Below are positions 14,395-17,192 of a stretch of 59,715 nt of DNA, piece after piece. Within the stretch, counting starts at the first letter, position 1; every line of letters begins with the position of its first letter. The notes beneath the pieces are model-generated. The model made no database searches and was not told the origin of the DNA. It worked only from the letters and a program-made list of their open reading frames with translations. Origin of the DNA: Nitrososphaerota archaeon (lineage in GTDB: Archaea; Thermoproteota; Nitrososphaeria; Conexivisphaerales; DTJL01); assembly GCA_021324115.1 (NCBI GenBank), contig JAJPJS010000006.1, positions 1-59,715 of the forward strand, written 5' to 3'. A program made the position numbers and the translations under genes.

Positions 14395-14512
14395 AGGATG
14401 AAAACGGGCCTGGATCAAACCTGCATTGCTGTAGACCGCATACCGGTCAGATACGATTCACCGATGCGAAATATGCAAAAAGCAAATAAGAGTGGATTAT
14501 TATAAATCATTT

Positions 14513-15376
14513 ATGAGTCAAACACAACAAAGCGGTTACGCTCATCCGGAAGTTCTGGTGGATGTCAACTGGGTTGAGAAAAGTATCGGAAATCCTCAGG
14601 TGAGAATTGCAGAAGTTGATTATGACCCTGCATCAAACTATAACGTGGGGCATATTCCGGGCTCCGTTCTTCTCGACTGGAGGAAAGATATGAACGACCC
14701 TGTGAGCAGAGACATCGTCACAAAGGAACAGCTCGAGGATGTACTGAGCAGAATCGGCGCGGACCAAAACACAACGATCGTGCTGTATGGGGATTTCAAC
14801 AACTGGTTCGCGGCATTTGCCTTTTGGATACTCAGGTACTACGGCGTCAAAAACGTTAAGCTCATGAATGGAGGAAGAAAGAAATGGCTGCTTGAAGACA
14901 AACCAGTTACAAAGGATGTTCCAGCTTATCCAAGAACAAACTTCAGAGTGTCGGAACCCGATGAAACCGTCAGAGTATACCGGGATTATGTCAGGCAGGT
15001 ACTGAGGATGAAGGATAAGGTGCTTGTCGATGTTAGGGGTCCCAAGGAGTTTACCGGCGAGGTACTCGCACCGCCTGAGTACCCCACAGAACATGCGCAG
15101 AGGGGTGGACATATTCCCGGGGCGATCAACATACCGTGGGCGCTCGCGGTGAATGACCAGGACGGTACATTCAAGAGCAGAGAAGAACTCGAAAAGCTTT
15201 ACAGCTCAAAGGGTGTCACAAGCGACAAGGAGGTCATCACGTACTGCCGGATAGGGGAACGCTCGTCACATTCCTGGTTCGTGCTTACATATCTTCTGGG
15301 TTACCCGAACGTTAAGAACTATGACGGCTCCTGGACGGAGTGGGGTAACGGCATAAGATTTCCGATCGAAAAGTAA
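14513..15376 (+). CDS. Two-domain rhodanese sulfurtransferase
   Basis: The 287-residue protein has two rhodanese domains. The first (with GHIPGSVLLDWRKD) lacks a catalytic cysteine. The second carries CRIGERSS, with Cys245 as the persulfide-forming residue in a loop typical of thiosulfate sulfurtransferases rather than the CG[ST]GVT of mercaptopyruvate enzymes. It would move sulfane sulfur from thiosulfate or another donor to an acceptor in the cytoplasm. The frame is open to a GTG at 14492 and the ATG at 14513 is preferred. It meets the GcvH/TusA-like gene tail to tail with no base between the stop codons, which suggests a shared sulfur-trafficking theme. Confidence 0.9.
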   Translation: MSQTQQSGYAHPEVLVDVNWVEKSIGNPQVRIAEVDYDPASNYNVGHIPGSVLLDWRKDMNDPVSRDIVTKEQLEDVLSRIGADQNTTIVLYGDFNNWFAAFAFWILRYYGVKNVKLMNGGRKKWLLEDKPVTKDVPAYPRTNFRVSEPDETVRVYRDYVRQVLRMKDKVLVDVRGPKEFTGEVLAPPEYPTEHAQRGGHIPGAINIPWALAVNDQDGTFKSREELEKLYSSKGVTSDKEVITYCRIGERSSHSWFVLTYLLGYPNVKNYDGSWTEWGNGIRFPIEK

Positions 15377-16036
15377 TCAACTTTTCTTCAGGATAAAGTG
15401 TCGTAGGTTAGCTTCCGTACGGGCCTCCAGAAGCCTGTTTCCTGTTTGGTCACTCCATCTTATGAGCTCAACTTCTGCTGTCGGATCGTCGGAGACTACG
15501 TGGACGACCGTTCCGGAGTCTGAACCGGAAAGAAGGTCGTTCAGCTTGACAAGCACAGCTGAACATTCGGTACCAATTTCATATAGTTCGTGATCTGGGA
15601 ATTCCTTGAAGCATCTTACCCCCATTTCCGTGATCATCTTTTCAAACAAGGGTGCAGCTTCGTGGAATGACTTCAATGATGAACTGACGTCATTTCCAGC
15701 TGCCACCTTGACTTCTGCCAGCCAGCCTCTTCCGTACGGGTCCTTGTTTACCAGGGAAGGATTCAATTCAAGATCAGGATTCGCAACCGTGACAGTACAC
15801 CTGACGGGAGATCTGATGACATCGAAGTGTCTTGGACCCTCGAGAGATGCAACCATGCGGCCGGGCTCGATCGAGGTGCCCGGCTGCCGCACGCTGACTC
15901 TTGCCGCCTTGCCAGTGATCCAGGCAATGATGGTATCCGGTCCCAGCACTGCTTTGTCTCCTCTGAATGAAATCCAGCAGTGGCCCTCAGGGAAGTACAG
16001 TACATCCTCTGCGAAGTAGCAATCCTCCAGATGCAA
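15377..16036 (-). CDS. GcvH-like / TusA-like fusion protein
   Basis: The 219-residue product joins two sulfur-related folds. Residues about 14-115 match the lipoyl-carrier fold of glycine cleavage H protein, including NPSLVNKDPYGRGWLAEVKV. At the position of the lipoylated Lys (ESVKA in GcvH) it reads EGPRH, so Arg69 replaces the lysine. Residues about 150-219 resemble TusA: a cysteine at the sulfur-carrier position (Cys158 in ECSAVLVKL, without the CPxP prolines), then VVSDDPTAEVELIRW and an LRHFILKK end. It starts at TTG, with a TATA-like TTAAAA about 26 nt upstream. The role is probably in sulfur handling, not glycine cleavage; no other gcv gene is nearby. The fusion call is from pattern and is fairly secure for the N-terminal half. 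Confidence 0.72.
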   Translation of the reverse strand: MHLEDCYFAEDVLYFPEGHCWISFRGDKAVLGPDTIIAWITGKAARVSVRQPGTSIEPGRMVASLEGPRHFDVIRSPVRCTVTVANPDLELNPSLVNKDPYGRGWLAEVKVAAGNDVSSSLKSFHEAAPLFEKMITEMGVRCFKEFPDHELYEIGTECSAVLVKLNDLLSGSDSGTVVHVVSDDPTAEVELIRWSDQTGNRLLEARTEANLRHFILKKS

Positions 16037-16100: not shown

Positions 16101-17192
16101 TTGACATCGCTGGGGAGTCAGCTGGTAAAGCCAATGGGTAAGGAGGCGGAGCTTTACCGGAGGCTTCCCAACGGAAGGATACAATGCACGGCATGTGCCA
16201 GAAACTGCCAGCTCGGGGAGGGTCAGATAGGTTTCTGCGGTGTGAGGGGCGTGGTTGGAGGAAAGCTCTGGCTTCTTGTGTACGGGAAGGTGATGGCCGG
16301 TCACATCGACCCCATAGAGAAGAAGCCGGTCATGCACTACAGGCCTGGCTCGCGGATCTTTTCCATCGCAACCACAGGGTGCAGCTGGAGGTGCCTCTAC
16401 TGCCAGAACTATGACATCAGCCAGAGACGAAAGGTTGAGGGAAAGGCACTTGACCCGGACGAGGCGGTGACACTGGCCGAGCAGAGGGGGTGTGAAGGTA
16501 TTGCATATACATACAACGAACCGTCCATTTTCATGGAATATGCGAGAGACGTGGGTAGAATAGCCCACAAAAGGGGCATCTTCAACATATTTGTCTCGAA
16601 CGGATACGATACACCATCCAGCGTCGCAGCAATGGGTGAGTTCCTGGACTGCATAACCGTGGACTTCAAGGGAAGTGGAGAGACATCGTTTGTCAGAAAG
16701 TACATATCGATACCAAATGCAGACCCAATTTTCCAATCTCTCCTTGAGATTAAGGAGAAGACGAAGGTGCACATAGAAATCACCGACCTTATTGTACCGC
16801 AGGTGGGAGACAGCCTCGAAGCGGCGGAAAAACTGTCGAAATGGATTTATGACAACCTCGGCCCAGACGTACCAGTACACTTTCTCAGGTTTCATCCTGA
16901 TTACATGATGATGGAGTTCCCGGTAACGCCGGTGGAAACCCTTGAGAGACATTACCAGATAGCCAAGAAGGCAGGCCTGAACTACGTTTACGTTGGGAAT
17001 GTTCCAGGTCACCCGGCCGAAAACACCTACTGCCCCGGCTGCTCAAAGGTTTTGATAAGAAGACACGGCTACTACATTTTGTCATACAACCTGGATGAAG
17101 ATGGTAAATGCGTTTTTTGCGGCTATAAAACACCCATCGTGGGTCCTCTGAGCAGGTGGGCTAGAGAAGACAGATTTCAGTCGGTTCTTTGA
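16101..17192 (+). CDS. amrS: AmmeMemoRadiSam system radical SAM enzyme (PflA-like)
   Basis: The 363-residue protein has the radical SAM cluster motif at Cys94, Cys98 and Cys101 (TTGCSWRCLYCQN). Upstream are an N-terminal cysteine group (CTACARNC and GFCG, Cys29-46) and downstream a C-terminal zinc-like set (CPGC, CVFCG). This is the layout of the radical SAM partner in the AmmeMemoRadiSam group, once annotated as a pyruvate formate-lyase activating enzyme. Its reaction is not established. The AMMECR1 and MEMO partners are not in this window. The start is TTG at 16101, with a Shine-Dalgarno AAGGAG at 16087-16092. The AT-rich stretch near 16060 may serve this gene and the divergent GcvH/TusA-like gene. 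Confidence 0.88.
   Translation: MTSLGSQLVKPMGKEAELYRRLPNGRIQCTACARNCQLGEGQIGFCGVRGVVGGKLWLLVYGKVMAGHIDPIEKKPVMHYRPGSRIFSIATTGCSWRCLYCQNYDISQRRKVEGKALDPDEAVTLAEQRGCEGIAYTYNEPSIFMEYARDVGRIAHKRGIFNIFVSNGYDTPSSVAAMGEFLDCITVDFKGSGETSFVRKYISIPNADPIFQSLLEIKEKTKVHIEITDLIVPQVGDSLEAAEKLSKWIYDNLGPDVPVHFLRFHPDYMMMEFPVTPVETLERHYQIAKKAGLNYVYVGNVPGHPAENTYCPGCSKVLIRRHGYYILSYNLDEDGKCVFCGYKTPIVGPLSRWAREDRFQSVL

Follow-up and report, generated by a model that had tools for sequence, protein, structure and literature searches.

LbpA of the sHdr pathway (Cao et al. 2018, PMC6067878) carries a lipoyl lysine that is strictly conserved in 95 LbpAs, and two cysteines, one by each end of the protein, that are missing in GcvH, with some archaeal exceptions; it has no TusA domain and is encoded in or near hdr-like clusters. 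TusA (PF01206; E. coli TusA, 3lvj and 1dcj) is a free-standing protein with a single carrier cysteine in a CPxP motif at the start of helix 1. In sulfur oxidisers TusA is loaded by rhodanese-like proteins, and in the rhd-tusA-dsrE2 sulfur relay a rhodanese is paired with a TusA module (PMC4175335). Here we describe a gene that joins the two folds in one protein, located next to a rhodanese gene in a window of 59,715 nucleotides (the whole stretch analysed, from contig JAJPJS010000006.1 of the Nitrososphaerota assembly GCA_021324115.1).

The fusion resembles LbpA in the clade of its H-fold domain, in a cysteine near each end of that domain and in its sulfur-related context, and differs in having arginine at the lipoyl position, an attached TusA domain and a location away from the hdr-like cluster. 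With TusA it shares the fold and the single carrier cysteine at the start of helix 1, whereas its family has a degenerate C[SA]xx motif and the domain is joined to an H fold. The likeness to the rhd-tusA-dsrE2 relay lies in the pairing of a rhodanese with a TusA module, but at the fusion locus the rhodanese has two domains and is mostly convergent, the TusA module is fused to an LbpA fold and no DsrE gene is adjacent. GcvH is alike in fold alone: the fusion falls in another clade, lacks the lipoyl lysine and has three cysteines, and most of its ammonia-oxidising carriers have no glycine cleavage system. LbpA, TusA and the rhodanese-TusA pairing are already known; we found no prior description of an LbpA-TusA fusion in the open-access literature searched, which suggests that such a fusion beside a rhodanese is apparently undescribed. 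The protein is probably a lipoate-independent sulfur carrier that works with the adjacent rhodanese. The features of the locus are the following:

15377 to 16036, reverse strand: LbpA-TusA fusion gene, 219 amino acids, TTG start (open reading frame, Pfam GCV_H and TusA matches, 98 full-length homologues)
15653 to 16000, reverse strand: H-fold (LbpA-type) domain, residues 13-128 (GCV_H match, tree, Foldseek match to 1onl with TM 0.92)
15386 to 15574, reverse strand: TusA-fold domain, residues 155-217 (PF01206, order of elements in the AlphaFold2 model, Foldseek match to E. coli TusA)
16019 to 16021, reverse strand: codon of Cys6, the N-terminal LbpA-type cysteine (98/98 homologues; aligned with the LbpA cysteine)
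15830 to 15832, reverse strand: codon AGA of Arg69 at the lipoyl-lysine position (reverse complement of TCT; gap-free alignment)
15611 to 15613, reverse strand: codon of Cys142 (VRCFKEFPD), the C-terminal LbpA-type cysteine, in the interdomain linker (98/98; aligned with the C-terminal cysteine of LbpA)
15563 to 15565, reverse strand: codon of Cys158, the TusA-type cysteine in CSAV (98/98; aligned with the CPxP cysteine of TusA)
14492 to 15376, forward strand: two-domain rhodanese of the thiosulfate-sulfurtransferase type (PF00581, 1.5e-36; linkage; clade)
15245 to 15247, forward strand: active-site cysteine of the rhodanese CRIGERS loop (CRIGER[SA] in 23/23 linked rhodaneses)

The N-terminal half matched GCV_H over residues 13-128 (E 9.6e-17, 61.5 bits in Pfam; cut-off 22.2). 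The TusA match over residues 155-217 was slightly below its cut-off of 28.6 bits in the Pfam search (E 3.6e-6, 27.2 bits) and above it in the genome scan (29.3 bits), and the orthologue in genome G002 also exceeded it (32.3 bits). The AlphaFold2 model of the full-length protein (pLDDT 83), built like our other models of the fusion on thin alignments, matched both the Thermus thermophilus H-protein 1onl (Foldseek TM(target) 0.92, E 2.5e-11) and E. coli TusA 3lvj_C (TM(target) 0.85, E 7.8e-4). When the C-terminal half was modelled alone, its secondary-structure elements followed the TusA order, and Foldseek placed TusA 3lvj_C and YeeD on top and YhhP at rank 10, with no E-value below 0.001. The profile and fold matches exclude a chance similarity to H-protein and TusA, and the 98 homologues exclude a local oddity or an assembly artefact. 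An H-protein fold followed by a TusA-like half that lacks CPxP, as the original prediction had it from the sequence, is thus what profile searches and structural models both recover; the motif reads CSAV.

A tree of 77 H-fold domains had a branch, supported at 100/98, with 20 GcvH on one side and the fusions together with LbpA and LbpA-like proteins on the other; the fusions formed a single group in 93% of bootstrap trees. Since the fusion lies on the LbpA side of this branch and has both LbpA-type cysteines (Cys6 and Cys142), its H half is LbpA-type and not GcvH-like as first proposed. The lipoyl lysine of LbpA is absent, and the hdr-like cluster of the same genome lies on another contig (G000:C2, with the fusion on C15); on the TusA side, the fold and the cysteine at the start of helix 1 are present and CPxP is not. 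By strict membership the fusion is neither LbpA nor TusA. Only six columns are invariant among the 98 full-length proteins, namely Cys6, Gly32, Asn86, Trp105, Cys142 and Cys158, so that the one cysteine originally singled out, Cys158, is confirmed as conserved but is not single. Proline directly follows Cys158 in 2 of the 98 homologues, and with CPxP lost the reactivity of this cysteine may differ from that of the TusA cysteine. The linker around Cys142 (residues 140-154) had pLDDT below 50 in the AlphaFold2 model.

The fusion ends exactly against the thiosulfate sulfurtransferase gene, as had been noted: nothing separates the stop codon of the fusion (15377-15379) from that of the rhodanese (15374-15376). 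Homologues suggest that the rhodanese starts at an ATG near 14513. Among 25 larger loci (ten families and L034), the rhodanese is beside the fusion or a few kilobases away in 23, and other neighbours are not generally common to the families. A high-scoring rhodanese is encoded on the contig of the fusion in 59 of the 75 fusion genomes of the class (54 convergent and 5 tandem pairs, 53 of them within 800 bp), and at least some of the other cases reflect contig ends. Because the convergent order is usual, the pair is not co-transcribed in most genomes; the two genes are codirectional in family f37 and in genome G499 of f52. We built a tree of 43 rhodaneses, in which the fusion-free lineages f7, f12, f10-g37 and f9-g43, the last two being groups inside fusion-bearing families, had theirs in a clade of their own (100/97). 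Most linked rhodaneses fell in another clade (96/94), and the fusion and the linked-type rhodanese are therefore absent together. Two genomes (G184 and G188) have a linked-type rhodanese without a detected fusion, perhaps because they are fragmented. The linkage is real and old, which does not in itself prove contact between the two proteins. The ammonia oxidisers G264, G248, G329, G201 and G099 of family f10 each carry at least two close copies of this rhodanese type with two domains. An AmmeMemoRadiSam-type radical SAM gene (16101-17192 of the window) is divergent from the fusion; it was dropped as a candidate partner because it is beside the fusion in loci of family f1 only.

We infer the sulfur donor, the direction and order of transfer, the Cys142/Cys6 relay and the acceptor as follows. 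The loop cysteine of the rhodanese (CRIGERS) would pick up sulfane sulfur as a persulfide, with thiosulfate or a comparable compound as donor, and hand it on to Cys158 in the TusA domain. Next, the sulfur itself, or reducing equivalents for its release, would reach Cys142 in the linker and Cys6 on the H fold. This cysteine pair would stand in for LbpA's swinging lipoyl arm and present the sulfur to an acceptor. Dihydrolipoate accepts sulfur from rhodaneses in vitro, an argument that has been made for LbpA (PMC6067878). In ammonia oxidisers, a biosynthetic acceptor (thiolated tRNA, molybdenum cofactor, iron-sulfur cluster or thiamine) would be likelier than one in energy metabolism. That this is a general lipoate-free relay in the Nitrososphaeria and their relatives, including ammonia oxidisers, running from rhodanese to TusA cysteine to the cysteine pair of the LbpA fold and on to an important sulfur acceptor, is a more tentative proposal. 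If true, it would show the LbpA fold doing sulfur chemistry with cysteines instead of lipoate. The use of lipoate in sulfur oxidation is known from LbpA; the fusion family allows what the fold does to be told apart from what the cofactor does, and so makes it testable why LbpA needs lipoate. Together the fusion and its rhodanese suggest that ammonia-oxidising archaea, organisms important to the nitrogen cycle, have a sulfur-transfer pair not described so far.

The same cysteines and the same neighbour could also belong to a thiol redox or sulfane-sulfur sensor or buffer, in which the three cysteines form disulfide or polysulfide bridges and the rhodanese removes excess sulfane sulfur. The other invariant residues do not look catalytic, which would agree with such a role, but the TusA fold is that of a carrier, the fusion has no DNA-binding or output domain and no regulator is kept near it, and we regard this function as unlikely.

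A profile built from five fusions was used to find homologues across the class and phylum of the window genome, and bacteria and the other archaeal phyla were queried with exact peptide patterns taken from a single protein; viral contigs that were searched yielded no relative. The 98 full-length homologues are from Thermoproteota, many of them from ammonia-oxidising archaea. The fusion is present in families f9, f10, f11, f14, f19 and f1 of the class and f37, f52, f68 and f79 of the phylum, and was not detected by the profile search in family f7 or in genus g37 of f10. Families f7, f9 and f10 carry archaeal AmoA, which identifies the class as that of the ammonia-oxidising archaea (Nitrososphaeria). 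The four fusion proteins of f1 did not form one clade in a quick, long-branched tree (the one used below for residue 69), a scatter that may be due to paralogy, transfer or error. L177 (G261) and L184 (G650) hold LbpA-TusA fusions of a second type, with CPET in the TusA half and lysine at the lipoyl site, and G650 has both types.

A complete sHdr-like cluster that includes LbpA, Lpl, DsrE, TusA and Apr is encoded in family f1, to which the window belongs, and a link of the fusion to sulfur oxidation is possible there. It is nevertheless rather improbable, more so than a sensor, that the fusion is a TusA-LbpA shuttle accessory to dissimilatory sulfur oxidation (sHdr): in the genome of the window the cluster and the fusion are on separate contigs and standalone TusA and LbpA are also encoded, and most fusion genomes are those of ammonia oxidisers or of other archaea in which an sHdr-type two-cysteine LbpA was not detected. 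The fusion is thus not specific to sulfur oxidation, which corrects, on this point, the kinship to lipoate-binding and TusA modules of sulfur oxidation that had been suggested and is otherwise supported. The sHdr-like cluster was found in the window's genome (L055, G000:C2:247000-264000) and in three further members of the family (L058, L060 and L062), a lineage without AmoA, and comprises HdrA/B/C-like proteins, two-cysteine LbpA, Lpl, DsrE, TusA, ArsR, Apr and, in most of them, Sat. From this gene content, these four members, which are related to ammonia oxidisers, are predicted to be sulfur oxidisers.

A gap-free alignment places E66-G-P-R69, the lipoyl position of the fusion, opposite ESVK of solved H-proteins, so that the arginine read there originally is correct. 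Among the 98 full-length homologues, residue 69 is arginine in 55, lysine in 26 and threonine, asparagine, serine, isoleucine, valine or leucine in 17. We counted 18 changes between lysine and other residues, at least 10 of them forced by well-supported branches, on a tree built without this column, a quick tree with long branches on which the exact number is soft. Lysine and arginine alternate even among species of one genus, and the sequences show repeated loss of the lipoyl lysine in the family. No member of the lipoate/octanoate ligase family PF21948 scored over the cut-off in 26 of the 27 ammonia oxidisers with the fusion, which include several single-contig genomes, but one did so in 12 of the 14 controls and in almost every other fusion carrier tested. 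This agrees with a published survey in which Thaumarchaeota had no lipoylation genes (PMC3904984). The residue counts and the missing ligase support the lipoyl-independent function first proposed. Lysine occurs at residue 69 in 8/28 carriers without the ligase versus 7/24 with it, and its retention is therefore unrelated to the capacity for lipoylation. This independence speaks against lysine-bearing members being still lipoyl proteins and the arginine forms recent decay, for which the 26 lysines and the conserved lysine of the LbpA and GcvH reference rows could be cited; moreover, arginine and other forms keep all three cysteines and the rhodanese partner and so are not decaying, and we consider this explanation very unlikely. 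Individual lysine-bearing members, about a quarter of the family, could be lipoylated where the ligase exists.

GDC-P is absent in 23 of 25 fusion-bearing ammonia-oxidiser genomes, consistent with a report of glycine cleavage in only a few members (PMC7848895), and the role of the fusion there is thus not glycine cleavage. Despite the GCV_H profile match and fold, the scores below the NCBIfam GcvH cut-offs (TIGR00527, 51.5 versus 115.85 bits; NF002270, 58.9 versus 117 bits), the position outside the GcvH clade and the genome content, with a canonical GcvH elsewhere in the window's genome and GDC-P missing from most ammonia-oxidising carriers, rule out GcvH identity and leave a glycine cleavage H-protein or pseudo-H-protein regulator with hardly any probability.

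LbpA-like proteins in L190, L192, L193, L197-L200, L203 and L204 mostly have an E[ST]xKW lipoyl site and fall on the LbpA side of the tree, and L190 and L192 contain additional H-fold open reading frames with arginine at the lipoyl site. H-fold proteins without the lipoyl lysine were also found in loci of bacterial metagenome-assembled genomes (L037, L043, L044 and L045), three of them consecutive in L037, and perhaps belong to the GcvH-related NCBIfam family NF045810.
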